From Streptomyces sp. NBC_00190 (lineage in GTDB: Bacteria; Actinomycetota; Actinomycetes; Streptomycetales; Streptomycetaceae), in contig NZ_CP108131.1 in the NCBI RefSeq assembly GCF_036203305.1, positions 372,001-436,000 on the forward strand: 64,000 nt of DNA, in the 5' to 3' direction. The translations under genes were made by a program, and so were the position numbers. Positions 57,097 to 64,000 of the stretch are shown piece after piece. Positions within the stretch are counted from its first letter, which is position 1. Each line of letters starts with the position of its first letter. The notes under the pieces are model-generated. The model had not been told where the DNA came from and did no database searches. It was given only the letters and a program-made list of their open reading frames with translations.

Positions 57097-57576
57097 TCAG
57101 TCGTCGCAGTACTGGGCCCGTACGTAGAGGGTCTGATTGTTGTGCACTCGCTGCCAGCCCGGCGTCGTGGAGTTGTGCCGGGAGCGCGAGAACTGCGACC
57201 CCCAGAAGCCCTCGCCCGGCTGGGTCACGTACCAGTACTGCAGGATGTACTCGCATCCCGCGTCGATCTTCAACGTGTCCCAGTCCTCGAAGCCGTTGGT
57301 GTGCGACCCCCGGCTATTCAGCCGCACGTATTCACGGTCGCCCTTGTAGCCGCAGGGCGCGTCGCCCTGGACCAGGTACTCCGCATCGCCGCACCAGTTG
57401 CGGTAGGCGTCCGCGTACACGCTCGAGTCGTTATACGTCTCCGAGCAGTAAGGGTTGACGCACCAGGAGCCGGCCTGTGCGCTACCCGCGCTGAGACCGA
57501 ATCCGGTGACCATGAAGACCGCAGCCAGCAGGGCGCGGAGCAGAACACGTCCACGCCCGGTTATGCGATTACGCAC
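57097..57576 (-). CDS. secreted cysteine-rich protein
   Basis: 159 residues from GTG 57576, chosen because GGAGGAG lies 4 bases upstream. Signal peptide (RVLLRALLAAVFMVTGFGLS, cleavage after AQA). Mature part of about 125 residues has six cysteines (SWCVNPYCSE, NWCGDAEY, APCGYKG, AGCEYIL, QYCDD), suggesting three disulfides, and many aromatic residues. No enzyme motif. Probably an extracellular stable beta-fold, perhaps a binding or inhibitor protein. Confidence 0.7.
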   Translation of the reverse strand: MRNRITGRGRVLLRALLAAVFMVTGFGLSAGSAQAGSWCVNPYCSETYNDSSVYADAYRNWCGDAEYLVQGDAPCGYKGDREYVRLNSRGSHTNGFEDWDTLKIDAGCEYILQYWYVTQPGEGFWGSQFSRSRHNSTTPGWQRVHNNQTLYVRAQYCDD

Positions 57577-57898
57577 AAAACTCCTCCATCCGTGAGTATC
57601 CCCGACCCGGGCTGCGGCGAGGAACAGCGATAGTCCGCGTCTGATCGCAGACGTCATGTGTCTCCTTGAGTGAATGATGAGCTCCTTGCGGGCCTATGGC
57701 CACGCACTGCGGACAGCGTGGTTCATGCCCGCTCCAACCGACAAGACCTGCAAGGCAGTTCGGGACACTGGGACACAAAGACGGCCCTCACCTGCTGGGA
57801 CTGGGCGTCGTGAGACACGGTTCGGACGCCGGGACGGTCGGTGGGCGCGTGCGTGGCAGACTGGCCGCGCTTGGTCAGGTGAACATTGGGAGAGTGCG
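57577..57898. other. divergent promoter region
   Basis: No gene recognised. Lies between the secreted protein gene and the receptor gene, so it must hold both promoters; no clear operator was found. Confidence 0.4.
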
Positions 57899-59497
57899 GT
57901 GGCTGGGTCCCGGAGCCAACAGGAATTCTCGGACTTCCTGAGTGCATTGAAGCAGCGCAGTGGTCTCACTTATGAGCGGATCGGACAGAAAGCGAATCTG
58001 AGCCGGTCGAGCGTTCATCGTTACTGTGGCGGCGGCGGATTCCCGCAGGAGTTCGGGGCGGCCGAGCGTATCGCCAAGGTGTGTGGCGCAAGCCGTGACG
58101 AGCTCAACAGGCTCTATCGGTTATGGTCGCGGGCCGGCGAGATCAAGAATGATCCCGGAGACTTGACGCCCGGTGAAACTGGAGCGTTCGATCCGTCCGC
58201 CAGCGAGAGAAAAAGAGCTGGAATTCGGGTGTGGTACTGGGTGCCGGTGGCTGGAGTTCTTGTGGCCGCGATCGTGGCCGCCTGGATCGTCAGCGGAGAG
58301 CAACCTGCCGCGGTCAGCGCGGCGATATCGGCTTCATCGTGGGCGCAGGCGCCGACTCCAGTGCCGGCGGGGTTCTTCGGGGTGACGACGAACAGCTCGA
58401 CCGGGGCCATGCCGACGTTTCAGACCGGGGCAGTGCGGCTGTGGGACAGCCGAACCCGGTGGGCCAACATGCAGGCGCGGCGGGGTGAGTTCGACTGGTC
58501 GATCCTGGATCGGCTGGTGGCGGGGGCCGAACAACGGGCGCTGCCGGTGATGTTCACGATGGGGGGCACGCCGGAGTGGGCGAGCCCGGGTGGACCCAGG
58601 ACTGCGTACGACGACGGGTCTCGTACCTCGGCGCCGGATGACCTGGCCGACTGGGACGCGTTCGTGCGGGGCGTGTCGGAGCGGTACCGGGGGCGGATCG
58701 AGGCGTACGAGTTGTGGGTGCTCGCCAATGATCCGAGGTTCTACAGCGGGGACGTGCGGACGCTGGTGGAGATGACCCGGCGGGCCAGCGGGATCATCAA
58801 GGGCGTTGACCCGAAGGCGACCGTGGTGTGTCCCTCGATGGGGCAGCTGTGGAAGGCGGAGGGACGGGCAGTGCTGGAGCAGTTCGCCGCGATGGGCGGG
58901 TACGACCACTGTGACGCGGCCGGGGTGAAGCTCTACCAGCGACAGGCGAGCGATCCACCGGAAACGATGGTGGAGCTGGCCGGCGAGATCGACCGGGCGT
59001 TCCATCGGGCCGGGGTGCACCCCAGGCTGTGGAGCACCGGAACCACCTACGACATTGCGCTGGCCGCTCCGTTGGAGCCTGAGCGGGCCAGCGACTACGC
59101 GGTGCGCTTCTACCTGGTCGGGCTGTACACGCAGATGCGACGGATGTATTTCTACAACTGGGGCGGCACCAAGATCCCGATCGTGTTGCAGCCGGTGGGT
59201 GGCAGCCCAACCCAAGCCGGCCTGTACGTAGAGGAGTTGCAGCGGTGGCTGCGAGGAGCCAGCATCACTGGCTGCGGGATGGGGTCGCAGGCCGCGTTGC
59301 CGTCGAACGTGTGGGAGTGCCGTTTCGTCGGAGCCGACGGCAAGGAGGCGCTGATCCGGTGGGCACACGACGGTACGGCCCGGACGTCGGCGGCCGGAAT
59401 GAGTGCCGTACACAGCCTTGATGGCACGTCGATCCGGGTCTCGGTTGGGGACGCGATCACCATCACCGGACGGCCGGTGCTGATCACCAGCGGGTAG
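57899..59497 (+). CDS. membrane one-component regulator: HTH, transmembrane segment, glycosidase-like extracellular domain
   Basis: 532 residues from GTG 57899 (GGGAGAG upstream). Residues 5-70 are an XRE-type helix-turn-helix (FSDFLSALKQRSGLTYERIG, ANLSRSSVHRYC). One membrane segment at about 110-132 (VPVAGVLVAAIVAAWIVSG). The 390-residue exterior resembles a family 39/5-type (beta/alpha) barrel: VRLWDSRTRWANMQARRGEF, MFTMGGTPEWASPGGP, YRGRIEAYELWVLANDP, MYFYNWGGTKIPIVL. The usual acid in the N-E-P position reads as LAND, so catalysis may be lost and sugar binding retained. It probably senses an extracellular glycan and transmits to DNA. Confidence 0.7.
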   Translation: MAGSRSQQEFSDFLSALKQRSGLTYERIGQKANLSRSSVHRYCGGGGFPQEFGAAERIAKVCGASRDELNRLYRLWSRAGEIKNDPGDLTPGETGAFDPSASERKRAGIRVWYWVPVAGVLVAAIVAAWIVSGEQPAAVSAAISASSWAQAPTPVPAGFFGVTTNSSTGAMPTFQTGAVRLWDSRTRWANMQARRGEFDWSILDRLVAGAEQRALPVMFTMGGTPEWASPGGPRTAYDDGSRTSAPDDLADWDAFVRGVSERYRGRIEAYELWVLANDPRFYSGDVRTLVEMTRRASGIIKGVDPKATVVCPSMGQLWKAEGRAVLEQFAAMGGYDHCDAAGVKLYQRQASDPPETMVELAGEIDRAFHRAGVHPRLWSTGTTYDIALAAPLEPERASDYAVRFYLVGLYTQMRRMYFYNWGGTKIPIVLQPVGGSPTQAGLYVEELQRWLRGASITGCGMGSQAALPSNVWECRFVGADGKEALIRWAHDGTARTSAAGMSAVHSLDGTSIRVSVGDAITITGRPVLITSG

Positions 59498-59598
59498 CCT
59501 GAAAGGTCTGTACCGGCCCGCCCCGAACCGTGTGATCGGAGCCGGTGGAAGGTAAATGCGTCGACAGCGCCCCTCGGTACCCGGCAAAGTGGCCGCCC

Positions 59599-60339
59599 GT
59601 GACGAGCAGTGAGCTGTGGACCCGTGCGACCGCCGACCGCTACGACGCCGAGGAGACCGAGACGTCCTCGGCCGCCGTTCTCGGACCGACTCTCGCCTTC
59701 CTCGCCGAGCTCGCCGGAGACGGCCGGGCACTGGAGTTCGCCATCGGGACCGGACGAGTGGGCGTCCCGCTCCGGGAACGAGGCGTGCCGGTGGTGGGCA
59801 TCGAACTGTCCGAGCACATGGCAGCGGTGCTGCGGCGCAAGATCGACGAGGACACGCTTCCGGTAGTCATCGGGGACATGGCCATCACCGTCGTTCCCGG
59901 GGAGTTCACCCTGGTCTATCTCGTCTACAACACCATCACGAACCTGCTCACGCAGGACGAGCAGGTCGAGTGCTTCCACAACGCCGCACGTCATCTGGAG
60001 CCCGGCGGCCGATTCGTCATCGAGCTGGGCGTGCCGCCGCTGCGGTTCCTGCCGCCCGGCCAGGTCGCGGTGCCGTTCGACGTCTCCGAGCAGCATCTCG
60101 GCTTCGACACCTTCGACCTCGTCGAGCAGATTCTCGTCTCGCACCACTTCACCCGCGACGGCGACGACGGCCGCTATCGCCGCGACAACTCCCGGCACCG
60201 CTACGCCTGGCCGGCAGAGCTCGACCTGATGGCACGGATCGCTGGGCTCGAGCTGGAACGTCGCGTCGCGGACTGGGACGGGGCGCCGTTCACCCAGGAC
60301 TCCGCGAAGCACATCTCCGTGTGGCGCAAGCCAACCTGA
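59599..60339 (+). CDS. class I SAM-dependent methyltransferase
   Basis: 246 residues from GTG 59599 (a GTG at 59545 is possible; neither has a strong ribosome site). ELWTRATADRYDAEETETSS is the family opening; AM-binding motif ALEFAIGTGRVGVPLRERG, then VVGIELSEHM, and LEPGGRFVIELGVPPLRF. C-terminal DGDDGRYRRDNSRHRYAWPA is typical of actinobacterial methyltransferases of unknown substrate. Complete. Follows the receptor gene by about 100 bases in the same direction. Confidence 0.75.
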   Translation: MTSSELWTRATADRYDAEETETSSAAVLGPTLAFLAELAGDGRALEFAIGTGRVGVPLRERGVPVVGIELSEHMAAVLRRKIDEDTLPVVIGDMAITVVPGEFTLVYLVYNTITNLLTQDEQVECFHNAARHLEPGGRFVIELGVPPLRFLPPGQVAVPFDVSEQHLGFDTFDLVEQILVSHHFTRDGDDGRYRRDNSRHRYAWPAELDLMARIAGLELERRVADWDGAPFTQDSAKHISVWRKPT

Positions 60340-60387
60340 GGTCGGCCACCGCGGTCCGTCGACGTAAGCCTGCCTGTCTTGAAACGC

Positions 60388-60757
60388 CTACCGGAAGTTC
60401 AGGCGTCGCCAGCAGATCAGGGCGCATCCGAGGGTGAGGAAGGCTTCGTGGATGTCGTCGCGTGTCTCCCAGCGGATCCGCAGGCGGCGGAACCAGTGCA
60501 GGTGGGCGAATGCCCGCTCCACGACCCAGCGTTGGGCGCCGAGTCCGGAGCCATGCTCGGTGCCCCGGCGGGCGATCAGCGGCTTTACGCCGAGATCCCG
60601 AACGAGGCTGCGGTACTTGTCGTGGTCGTAGCCGCGGTCGCCCAACACCAAGTCCGGGCGGTGCCGGGCGGGCCTCGCTTGCCCCGCACCCGCGGTACTG
60701 CCTGAAGCAGCGGGATCAGCTGGGTGACGTCGTCGCGGTTGCCGCCGGTCAAGGTGG
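60388..60757 (-). pseudogene. IS5-family transposase, C-terminal half
   Basis: TGGNRDDVTQLIPLLQAVPR, a shift in a run near 60675, then RPDLVLGDRGYDHDKYRSLV and GSGLGAQRWVVERAFAHLHW with the second aspartate and the glutamate of the DDE triad, to a stop at 60388. The upstream half was lost at about 60757. Inserted between the methyltransferase and the receptor gene. Confidence 0.75.
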
Positions 60758-60814
60758 CAGCTCCAAGCCGGGCGGCATGTGCCGCCCGGCTTCACAGCAT
60801 GGTTCGTGTGTCGC

Positions 60815-62722
60815 TTAGTTGTACGGTGGGATGCCCTTGCGCACGACTTGGGGTTCGTGGGTGCTCTTGCGGTTGCCGGTCTGTGAGTCGATGCGGAATA
60901 CGCCGCTGGCTCCCTCGATGACATTGGTGGTCTCGAAGAGGTAGAGCTGTGCTCCTACCGCCTGCACGGTGGGCGGGGTCTGCGGCGGGTCGATGGCGTT
61001 TCGGATGGCCAGGCTCGCGGTGAGGACCGCGTCGTGCGCCATGACCGGCCACCCGCTGGACAGGTGACCTTTGTCGAACTGCTGTCCGTAGTGGACACGG
61101 CCGAACTCGTCGGCGAACGCCTCGAAGAGGCTGTGGTCAGGGTTGATGCTGTCGCCGAGCTGGCCGGGGTCGGCGAGGGGCACGTAGAGCACCGAGATCG
61201 GGGCGCTGGGGTCGTTCAGGGCCGGCAGCTTGGGGTCCAGGGTGGCCGCGTCGGAGCCGGTGACCACCGTGATCGGCGTCGTTCGGCACTGCCGCTGGTG
61301 CAGGTAGTCAAGGAACGTGGGCAGGTATGTCGCGCGGCCGGCATAGAACACCATGTCGGGTGTGACCTTGCCGCAGAGGTTCTTGCTGATGGTGCTCAGG
61401 CTGGTCTGCGCGGCACCTCCCGTGACGACGAAGTTGAACGAGATGCCTCCCGCCTCCAGGTAGGGCAGGACTCCGGTTCCCGGGTTCCGGAAGGCCCCTT
61501 CCAGCGACTGCGTGTAGAAATCGGGCGTTCCGTTCGGGGTGGTCGGTGCGCTGACGAGGGCCGCGGTCTTCAGCTCGGGATACTTGACCAGTGCCTGGCT
61601 GATCGCCTTCAACTGTGTGCTGGCGTTGGGGGCCACCCGTACCAGACCCGCGATCTTGGCGCCGGCGTCGATACTGCCGGTGGTGTCGAAGCCGTCCGCG
61701 GTGATGAGGTCGCCGACCATCGGAATGGAGGCCGCCGACAGCGACCGCGCGGCATCGATCGATTCCTTCTGGCTCAAGCCCATCCCGGTCACCGCGACGA
61801 GCGGGCCGGGTCCGCCAGTCATCTTCTTGAGGCGGTCGACGACGTCGGGCCAGTTCGTTTCATCCGAGCTCATGTTCGCCAGTACCAGGCGGATCTTGGG
61901 GTAGGCGTTACCCTCGTTCGCCTTGCGCACAGCGATGAAGGCCCCCTCGACCTGATGCACGGCACGGTCGCCGGTCAGGCTTTTGGGGCCCTGGGTCAGC
62001 GGCCCCATCAGCGCCACCGTGACGTAGCCTTCGGTCTTCACCACGGCCTGGTTCTCGGCCTCAATCGCAGCGAGGGCCGACTGGAGTCCCGGGCCGAAGA
62101 CGCCGTGGTCGTCGCTGCCGTCGGTGATTCCGGAACACCCGTCCGGCGTGGTGAGCAACGCCAGATTCTTGGCGCCGCAGTGGGCCTTGCGTAGGGCCGC
62201 GTCCTCCGCGGCAGCTATCACCTTCTCCTGCCATGCGTGCCACCACAGGCCGCCAGCGATCAAGGCGATCATTACCACCACTGCAGTCAGCACGATCCGC
62301 CAGTGCCGGCGCACGAACCGAGGCAGCGGGATCGAACCGGAGGGCGTCGAGGCCTCGGAGCCCCGGCCATCCGGCGAGACCTCGGGGCCCTGCGACCGCT
62401 CAAGGGGGGCTCGGCCGTCCTCCAGGGCCTGCCGCACCTCTCTCCAGAGGGCCTGGCCGTCTTCGCTCAGCCCGCAGGCCTTGAGGAACTGACTCACGAA
62501 CTCGAGCGTGGGGAGTTCGTCCCGGGTCAGGGCCGACGTCACGGCGGCTTCCGGAAGCGGTAGGCCCCCCGCCGCTCTGGCCGCCTCAGCGACCTCCTCA
62601 CCCGTCTTTTCCGTGTACCTCTGGAAGCTGCCGAGCAGCTCGCGGAATTCCTTGTCGTTGCCTATCGCGCGGAGCTTGTCCTGCCAGTAGGAACCGCCGC
62701 CAGGCGTCGTCGGGCCCGTCAC
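60815..62722 (-). CDS. membrane receptor: cytoplasmic helical domain, transmembrane segment, periplasmic-binding domain
   Basis: 635 residues from GTG 62722 (GGAGGA 6 bases upstream). N-terminal 95 residues are a helical domain like a degenerate XRE helix-turn-helix or death-fold adaptor (YWQDKLRAIGNDKEFRELLG, LPTLEFVSQFLKACGLSED). One membrane segment near 140-163 (WRIVLTAVVVMIALIAGGLW). The exterior is a two-lobed ABC-type I solute-binding fold (LVALMGP-like YVTVALMGPLTQG, PLVAVTGMGLSQKESIDAAR, SIPMVGDLITADGFDTTG, GWPVMAHDAVLTASLAIRNA) as in branched-chain amino-acid receptors. No permease is nearby, so sensing, not transport, is the likely role. Confidence 0.75.
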   Translation of the reverse strand: MTGPTTPGGGSYWQDKLRAIGNDKEFRELLGSFQRYTEKTGEEVAEAARAAGGLPLPEAAVTSALTRDELPTLEFVSQFLKACGLSEDGQALWREVRQALEDGRAPLERSQGPEVSPDGRGSEASTPSGSIPLPRFVRRHWRIVLTAVVVMIALIAGGLWWHAWQEKVIAAAEDAALRKAHCGAKNLALLTTPDGCSGITDGSDDHGVFGPGLQSALAAIEAENQAVVKTEGYVTVALMGPLTQGPKSLTGDRAVHQVEGAFIAVRKANEGNAYPKIRLVLANMSSDETNWPDVVDRLKKMTGGPGPLVAVTGMGLSQKESIDAARSLSAASIPMVGDLITADGFDTTGSIDAGAKIAGLVRVAPNASTQLKAISQALVKYPELKTAALVSAPTTPNGTPDFYTQSLEGAFRNPGTGVLPYLEAGGISFNFVVTGGAAQTSLSTISKNLCGKVTPDMVFYAGRATYLPTFLDYLHQRQCRTTPITVVTGSDAATLDPKLPALNDPSAPISVLYVPLADPGQLGDSINPDHSLFEAFADEFGRVHYGQQFDKGHLSSGWPVMAHDAVLTASLAIRNAIDPPQTPPTVQAVGAQLYLFETTNVIEGASGVFRIDSQTGNRKSTHEPQVVRKGIPPYN

Positions 62723-63025
62723 TCCATTCCTCCTGGAAGGGCGAAAGACCGATGAGGTTGCATGGGAGAGCCTCCTGGGCGATGTGGGCGTGCAGGACAA
62801 GCCCGAATGCGCTTACCGGGCGCCAGGTACGGGCTGTGACGGGGAGTAAGCCTGCTGTTATCAAAGGGTGGCTGGCAAGCCGTGGTCAGGGTGGGACACA
62901 ACCGCTCCCAATCCGTTCTGACTACGCATACGTTCCGCCACGCCCGATCACGAGAATTCGGCCCGCAGCACGGCCGGCACGATCCGCATTGCGACCGACG
63001 ACAGGCGGACAACACGCGGACATTC
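62723..63025. other. upstream region of the receptor gene
   Basis: No gene recognised; carries the receptor promoter. Confidence 0.4.
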
Positions 63026-63056
63026 AGAGGGCCCCTGTTACCGGCAGGGGCCCTCT
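63026..63056 (-). terminator. hairpin terminator
   Basis: AGAGGGCCCCTG, 7-base loop, CAGGGGCCCTCT: perfect 12-bp stem 70 bases beyond the stop of the small membrane protein gene on the minus strand. Confidence 0.65.
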
Positions 63057-63126
63057 TCCACAAACACCCCGCGGCCTCCGCCGACGCTCCCCCGCTGCGC
63101 GCAGGTGCCGGGAGACTCACCGGCTC

Positions 63127-63384
63127 TTACGGGTGCGGTTCCTCACCAGGGTGCTCACCAGCACTGCGGCCGTTGGTGCGGCGGCGCGTTCGGTGGTCGC
63201 GCCGGTTGGTCCACCAGGTGAGCCGGTCCGAGGAATTCTGGGGGAAGACGGTCTGCACGGATGTCGCGGCCAGGACCAGGACCAGGCAGATCACGACGCC
63301 CCACCACGGCGCCCCGGCCATCGCGGCGGCCAGGCCGCTGACCGCGGTGACCGACGCGGGCACCAGGTTCGGGGAGATGGCCAT
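63127..63384 (-). CDS. small membrane protein
   Basis: 85 residues from ATG 63384, GAAGTGAGG upstream. Two hydrophobic stretches (SVTAVSGLAAAMAG and WWGVVICLVLVLAATS) then a long arginine-rich cytoplasmic tail (DRLTWWTNRRDHRTRRRTNG). Followed by a terminator. Divergent from the XRE gene, so they may share control. No family recognised. Confidence 0.55.
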   Translation of the reverse strand: MAISPNLVPASVTAVSGLAAAMAGAPWWGVVICLVLVLAATSVQTVFPQNSSDRLTWWTNRRDHRTRRRTNGRSAGEHPGEEPHP

Positions 63385-63620
63385 CGTCAGACCTCACTTC
63401 CGCTTGCGTGTACGAATCGCCCTCCGCGCTTCGCTGCTACCAGCCTTCGAGCGGGGCGGATCTTGCGGGAGCGGGAACAGCCAATTTCCAGCCAATCGTC
63501 AACTTCCAGCCTTCCGCTTACCTCTTCAGCCAGGACGTTCCCGGCGTGTCACCGCATGCGTGACAATCGGTCAACCGCACTGTGCACAAGCGGTGTTCGC
63601 GGGAACTGAAAGGCTGGGCG

Positions 63621-64000
63621 ATGGACGAACCAGAGAGCGCCTCAGCCGTGTACGCGGCCGCGCTGCGGACAGCGCTGGCCCGCTTCACCACCGCCGGCGG
63701 GACACAGAAGAAGATCGCCCAGGCCTTGAACCTGGCCCCGGCCACCCTCTCCCGCTACCTGAGCGGAGAACGCGTCGCCCCCCGCGAATTCCTCCGTGAC
63801 CTGCGGGACTACCTCGACCAGCAGGACATGCCCTGGACACCCGAGGCATACGAGAGCCTGGGCGCCCTGTGCGGGCAGGCCCACACGGCCAGCGGATCCC
63901 CAACCGTCCAACTCGCACAGCTCAGAGAAGAACTGACCCGCCTGCGCCACGAACAGCAGCAGGCCCAGCAGGTCGACGAGGCACGCCTGGCCGAGCTGGA
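63621..64000 (+). CDS. XRE-family helix-turn-helix protein, cut by window end
   Basis: Gene opens at ATG 63621 with GAAAGG upstream and runs past base 64000. Residues 15-75: LARFTTAGGTQKKIAQALNL then LAPATLSRYLSGERVAPREF, a clear XRE helix-turn-helix. From about residue 95 a coiled coil starts (LAQLREELTRLRHEQQQAQQ). The layout resembles large Streptomyces signalling proteins in which an XRE domain precedes coiled coil and effector or membrane domains. Only the first 126 residues are visible. Confidence 0.7.
   Translation, partial: MDEPESASAVYAAALRTALARFTTAGGTQKKIAQALNLAPATLSRYLSGERVAPREFLRDLRDYLDQQDMPWTPEAYESLGALCGQAHTASGSPTVQLAQLREELTRLRHEQQQAQQVDEARLAEL

Follow-up and report, generated by a model that had tools for sequence, protein, structure and literature searches.

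The window analysed here is a 64,000-nucleotide stretch of Streptomyces sp. NBC_00190, positions 372001-436000 of an 8.6-Mb contig in a genome of 8.9 Mb. Toward its end lie genes A, B and C, each with a helix-turn-helix (HTH) region, as well as S, a gene for a small secreted protein divergent from A, and a direct repeat between S and A (Table 1). The original prediction for this DNA described A and B as membrane receptors with an N-terminal HTH, a single transmembrane (TM) helix and a large exterior. This layout was confirmed for both, with the HTH of B being weaker and below the Pfam cut-off. Comparison of homologous loci brought out the domain order of A, the loss of catalytic residues from its exterior, its linkage to S, and the repeat with its distribution, and it suggests that A is probably a membrane-anchored one-component transcription regulator of S.

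The GTG start of A is preceded by GGGAGAG. Residues 9-72 matched HTH_31 in a Pfam scan (E 2.7e-12, 47.2 bits against a cut-off of 27), placing a recognized DNA-binding domain and a TM helix (~residues 115-131) in one protein. Because basic residues flank the TM helix on its N-terminal side, the N-terminus is predicted to be cytoplasmic. The nearest named homologue among the matches listed was 89% identical. We compared the best 80 of 105 A loci, from 24 named genera, and 73 of these encode the HTH helix and the exterior in one frame, so the layout is shared by homologues elsewhere. In four others (L146, L147, L150 and L164), a SARP regulator with Trans_reg_C and BTAD above cut-off replaces the HTH; the other three loci are L141, L144 and L149. 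Judged by these domain matches, the cytoplasmic part of the family is swapped between DNA-binding types. A survey of 295 genomes of the same genus, with the best four candidates scored per genome, detected A in 11 (E ≤ 1e-30). Among phage records, the only match was a 24%-identical phage xylanase, and no relative was found in the viral contigs searched. A, S and the repeat in JOAA01000027.1 (L137, labelled Rhodococcus rhodnii) are similar to Lentzea loci, which points to assembly contamination or transfer. One homologue is plasmid-borne (L255, Amycolatopsis plasmid pAS20800), with an I36 peptidase inhibitor annotated alongside and a MobF relaxase gene near.

When the neighbours of A were clustered with BLAST, none was widely conserved; the largest cluster besides A itself covered 12 loci. 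By a simple signal-peptide rule applied to approximate gene calls, 57/150 genes adjacent to A were secreted compared to 102/655 distant genes (Fisher 5.5e-9). Iterated profiles seeded from the secreted neighbours were then run against the 12,807 stop-to-stop frames of 91 A loci. They matched 44 distinct frames in 44 loci, every one within 1.5 kb of A and none beyond, a result to be read with the bias of neighbour-derived seeds towards neighbours and with the 1.5-kb flank of 5 of the 44 loci, where a distant match was impossible. Profile types 1 and 2 overlap, while 3 and 4 are separate. The 25 type 1 sequences (alignment A3) share an invariant Asn, a D-x-D motif and two nearly invariant Cys; they gave no Pfam match above cut-off and a sole PDB match at E 0.59. 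S of the window, which is divergent from A at a spacing of 241 bp, had no Pfam match either. In each of 231 compared pairs, S was less alike than the exterior of A. By these alignments, S is a fast-evolving secreted protein; that it is exported, contains cysteines and changes rapidly would be in keeping with a role in contacts with variable extracellular partners.

The same-genus survey gave 23 S matches in 22 of the 295 genomes, 18 of them not adjacent to A. One S-family gene without A adjoins a SARP-like frame (L206:7153-11066), and another lies 59 bp from a 1225-amino-acid frame whose N-terminus is HTH-like and which has one TM helix (L209:7328-11483). These neighbours suggest that S may pair with other regulators.

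In 71 non-redundant A upstream regions, counts of short dyads brought out GGGAC at an 8-bp period. The exact repeat GGGACnnnGGGAC was present in 19 of these regions compared to 0.3 expected from shuffles, with all 21 sites in a single orientation. Across the 400-bp upstream windows of all 80 named loci, 24/25 sites had the same orientation, at a density about 40 times that in the rest of the loci. With a leave-one-out matrix at a 1% shuffle threshold, 29/71 regions passed on one strand and 0/71 on the other. Inverted-repeat operators were also tried and were weaker than the direct repeat. The repeat was rejected as coding sequence upstream of A, since its sites fall 11/5/5 over the three frames and 8/21 meet an in-frame stop codon ahead of A. 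Among the 26 exact matches outside the 400-bp upstream windows, however, 11 lie inside A, where codons for WDSGT would produce them.

The element follows S rather than A where the two can be told apart: in 8/17 non-divergent A-S pairs it lies before S, and in 0 of those 8 does it lie before A. It was present at 21/44 paired S genes, on the strand opposite S in 18 and on the S strand in 3. S genes not adjacent to A carried it in 1/18 cases (G054, with A elsewhere in the genome; G007, also with A elsewhere, fails), and in genomes without detected A it was found at 0/16 S genes, compared to the 21/44 paired ones (Fisher 4e-4). In the genome of the window itself, four strict matches were found compared to one for a backward control. 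By our reading of the frames, one of the four is at A, one precedes another gene pair, and two are inside coding frames.

The presence of the repeat also varied with residue 36 of A, which lies in the recognition helix. The element was present at 36/54 loci with Arg or Lys there and at 3/12 loci with other residues (p 0.011), or at 3/17 (p 0.0006) once five later loci, non-basic at that position and without the element, were added; both tests ignore shared ancestry, which weighs against regulation of S by A, as do several other observations. S was undetected by the profiles in 47/91 A loci, and 42/71 A upstream regions fail the matrix threshold. Identical recognition helices occur with differing presence of the repeat (for example, L109 and L110). 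Three loci, L092, L116 and L160, carry the repeat in the other orientation, near the mature S domain, where it is possibly coding. One strict match in the genome of the window precedes an unrelated gene pair. Finally, three further upstream regions and two plasmid loci, all five non-basic at position 36, were without the repeat. In this further sample, 24/30 fetched loci had the same sequence as named loci, three new regions were scorable, of which 0 passed, and three were unscorable; at the two plasmid loci the S profiles also matched nothing.

The many A loci without the repeat and the match before an unrelated gene pair would also fit an alternative in which A and S are merely co-inherited, the repeat is the binding site of another factor, such as a soluble regulator or an extracytoplasmic function (ECF) sigma factor, and signalling by A takes a different route. 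We consider this unlikely, since the repeat is missing from all 16 S genes of genomes in which A was not detected and its presence varies with the recognition-helix residue of A. Also, no repeat was found upstream of the five loci with SARP or a lost HTH (L146, L147, L149, L150 and L164).

Another possible explanation is that the HTH of A serves as a scaffold for other proteins and makes no contact with DNA. RodZ has the same order of HTH, TM helix and exterior, and one relative of B (P0147) is named "protein RodZ" by a source. This explanation is very unlikely, given that the genome's eight HTH_25 matches include neither A nor B, DUF4115 matched neither of them in the Pfam scan, a DNA repeat accompanies A, and a SARP regulator stands in the place of the HTH at four loci.

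The exterior of A had been described as glycosidase-like, and this was upheld for the fold but not for the catalytic residues. The AlphaFold2 model of A has a mean pLDDT (predicted local distance difference test score) of 87.7, and Foldseek returned PslG and GH39 enzymes as the best PDB folds for the exterior (E 2.7e-20 to PslG), recovering the barrel fold. Also, a profile built from 70 A sequences detected PslG in the PDB (E 6.6e-7). In the profile alignment, WNEPN and WSTE of PslG align with WVLAN and WSTG of A. The available text of PMC9075953 gives E165 and E276 as the key residues of PslG, to which the aligned positions would correspond in numbering. In A and the 80 named loci, Glu was found in 0/81 at the first catalytic position and in 0/81 at the second, where Gly is present in 81/81. 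When A was aligned with the best 120 of 465 matches, 120/121 displayed a residue at the first position, none of them Glu, and 121/121 had Gly at the second. By this alignment, the exterior is a pseudoenzyme, a glycosidase fold with both catalytic Glu gone. Of 48 invariant positions, 20 fall within the 48 of 292 residues that lie close to where the barrel strands end C-terminally (hypergeometric 3e-6, for hand-chosen windows), which fits with a retained pocket.

At three Actinomadura loci, L149, L150 and L164, the adjoining gene encodes a secreted relative that is 39-43% identical to the exterior of A and has both Glu. In sequence, each of these loci is an enzyme and pseudoenzyme pair, with the pseudo-glycosidase receptor beside a relative keeping both Glu. 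That A is simply a glycosidase anchored in the membrane, its N-terminus a mere decoration, is scarcely credible despite the glycosidase fold of its exterior, as both catalytic positions are lost in 81/81 aligned members while the secreted relatives beside A retain both Glu.

Regulation of S by A could proceed as follows. Since the catalytic residues are lost and the pocket is kept, the exterior would most likely bind a polysaccharide or a polysaccharide fragment, and by analogy with the RsgI sensors, as far as they are covered in the available text of PMC12203970, a glycan is the most likely kind of ligand. The signal would cross the single TM helix to the cytoplasmic HTH and alter the binding of this HTH to DNA, which we infer takes place at the GGGACnnnGGGAC repeat before S. 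Transcription of S would thereby be switched on or off, and that of A too where the two genes are divergent. The direct signalling from an outside ligand to DNA without a kinase that the original prediction proposed is thus favoured for A by the HTH above cut-off, the repeat varying with the recognition helix and the SARP swap, whereas for B only the layout was borne out. A broader proposal is that A and S form a self-contained actinobacterial circuit, in which a dead glycosidase serves as the receptor for a glycan, or for S itself, and adjusts a diversifying secreted protein, possibly in recognition of or conflict with neighbours, the receptor having been repeatedly paired with different secreted families under one repeat. 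We regard this wider picture as doubtful, if conceivable.

Table 1. Features of the A/S region and of the neighbouring genes B and C (positions in the window)
Feature	Position	Strand	Remarks
Gene A: HTH_31, one TM helix, pseudo-glycosidase exterior	57899..59497	+	532 amino acids; GTG start at 57899
HTH_31 domain of A, residues 9-72	57923..58114	+	recognition helix LSRSSVHRYC, residues 34-43
Hydrophobic core of the TM helix of A, residues 115-131	58241..58291	+	basic residues on N-terminal side
Exterior of A, PslG/GH39-like barrel	58334..59494	+	catalytic positions L275 (58721-58723) and G381 (59039-59041)
Direct repeat CGGGACACTGGGACA, probable operator between S and A	57761..57775	+	from sequence comparison
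Gene S: small secreted protein with cysteines, divergent from A	57097..57657	-	186 amino acids; 159-amino-acid start possible
Gene B: weak HTH (~62417-62656), one TM helix (62240-62296), LivK-type exterior (~60818-62185)	60815..62722	-	635 amino acids
Gene C: HTH, coiled coil, ~3 TM helices	63582..64000	+	extends past the window (L009:9582-10781, 399 amino acids)

B also starts at a GTG, at 62722, preceded by AGGAGG, and its TM helix spans ~residues 143-161. The ABC-type solute-binding fold proposed for its exterior was supported by structure prediction, which gave a LivK/mGluR-type, type I binding-protein fold (model pLDDT 90.7). HTH_31 reached 13 bits in B against the cut-off of 27, and it was above cut-off in three of ten relatives scanned (P0122, P0160 and P0169). 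The B-type and A-type N-terminal profiles are related (hhalign probability 95, E 4e-8). A comparison of three sequences for an operator of B found nothing common to all. Related exteriors were present in 83/295 same-genus genomes (E ≤ 1e-30). B-like proteins with a long N-terminal part were seen in the genome of the window and six others (G199, G286, G110, G148, G226 and G095), the N-terminus in G199 being of another type.

In sequence, B looks like a second receptor of A's general plan, with DNA as a candidate output. An alternative that we hold to be quite possible, if just short of probable, is that its HTH is an adaptor passing the signal to another protein instead of DNA. The N-terminal domain of B is acidic (net -5), which would suit an adaptor, but the family charge spans -6 to +7, and with such scatter charge was not decisive as a test for DNA binding. 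The relatedness of the A-type and B-type HTH profiles also counts against an adaptor. On the other hand, other relatives have different N-termini ahead of the same exterior. At seven of the loci L171-L178, from other genomes and with the exterior only, and at the paralogue L084 in the genome of the window, the gene lies just 3' of a 666-1026-amino-acid frame; the eighth fetched locus, L173, had no gene call. Five of these eight frames were scanned, with AAA-type matches below cut-off in L171, L176 and L177 and no match in L178 and L084. A two-gene pair thus recurs, a nucleoside triphosphatase (NTPase)-like protein followed by a short-tailed membrane LivK-type receptor (L084:4253-8816; L171, L172 and L174-L178). 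Given the varied N-termini and the NTPase-like neighbours, B looks like a receptor whose outputs can be exchanged.

C had been noted as a third XRE gene. Its HTH is present, and HTH_31 is borderline, at 27.3 bits in the genome scan and 26.5 and 23.9 bits in other scans (cut-off 27). Past the HTH, the sequence reads as a coiled coil and about three TM helices with no exterior. About 3 kb past C lie an XRE regulator and a small gene (L009:13938-15331), which we take to resemble the common Streptomyces XRE/small-protein pair. The three genes, which the original prediction called a cluster, do not form one conserved system. Among the 295 same-genus genomes, A and B co-occurred in the genome of the window only, and A plus B as one system was therefore ruled out. 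The 8.9-Mb genome holds 101 HTH_31 matches at E ≤ 0.1, so that three within 6 kb are, by a rough estimate, plausible by chance. B and C are outside the A/S module.

An S-adenosylmethionine methyltransferase (Methyltransf_25/11) at 59545-60339 on the + strand starts 47 bp past A and is absent from the 25 largest neighbour clusters. Its nearest NCBIfam model, under cut-off, is a methyltransferase of daptide-type ribosomally synthesized and post-translationally modified peptides. A transposase-like fragment at 60388-60924 on the - strand overlaps the 3' end of B by open reading frame, and the arm region appears rearranged.

According to the available text of PMC10269533, transcription regulators that span the membrane once form an established class, and experimental validation exists for very few membrane one-component regulators relative to the number predicted. 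In the A system, one can name the receptor, a ~15-bp element that is probably the operator, and an adjacent gene that is probably the target, and A may report an outside signal straight to the neighbouring gene. A glycosidase turned receptor, with Glu-keeping relatives adjoining in three Actinomadura loci, would also make a clean case of an enzyme becoming a sensor. A description of the A family was not found in searches of the open-licence PMC literature, and the available text of PMC7159879, consulted for HTH adaptors, does not describe this arrangement.

In the same text of PMC10269533, ToxR, CadC and TcpP are like A in joining an inside DNA-binding domain, one TM helix and an outside sensor in a single polypeptide. 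A differs from them in its XRE-type HTH_31, its pseudo-glycosidase exterior and its linked secreted protein; a term search of that survey text found neither XRE nor glycosidase exteriors named. The RsgI anti-sigma factors of Clostridium thermocellum, in the available text of PMC12203970, are also single-pass proteins, in which an exterior of glycosidase type (GH10 in one case) senses carbohydrates for the control of transcription. Where RsgI binds a sigma factor, A has an HTH of its own, and the Pfam scan of A found HTH and glycosidase families only, with no anti-sigma N-terminal domain. The actinobacterial ECF52 and ECF53, in the available text of PMC10766802, likewise combine a TM helix with predicted glycosidase or carbohydrate-binding parts, but they have a sigma factor where A has HTH_31, and the Pfam scan found no sigma-factor domains in A. 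PslG and the GH39 glycosidases share the fold of the exterior of A, which is without both catalytic Glu. LivK-type binding proteins and mGluR ligand domains share that of B, where it follows an HTH and a TM helix in the same protein. Glycosidase-type exteriors on transcription regulators are thus already known (RsgI) or predicted (ECF52/ECF53), and, as far as the available texts go, the combination of HTH_31 with a pseudo-glycosidase exterior appears to be new.

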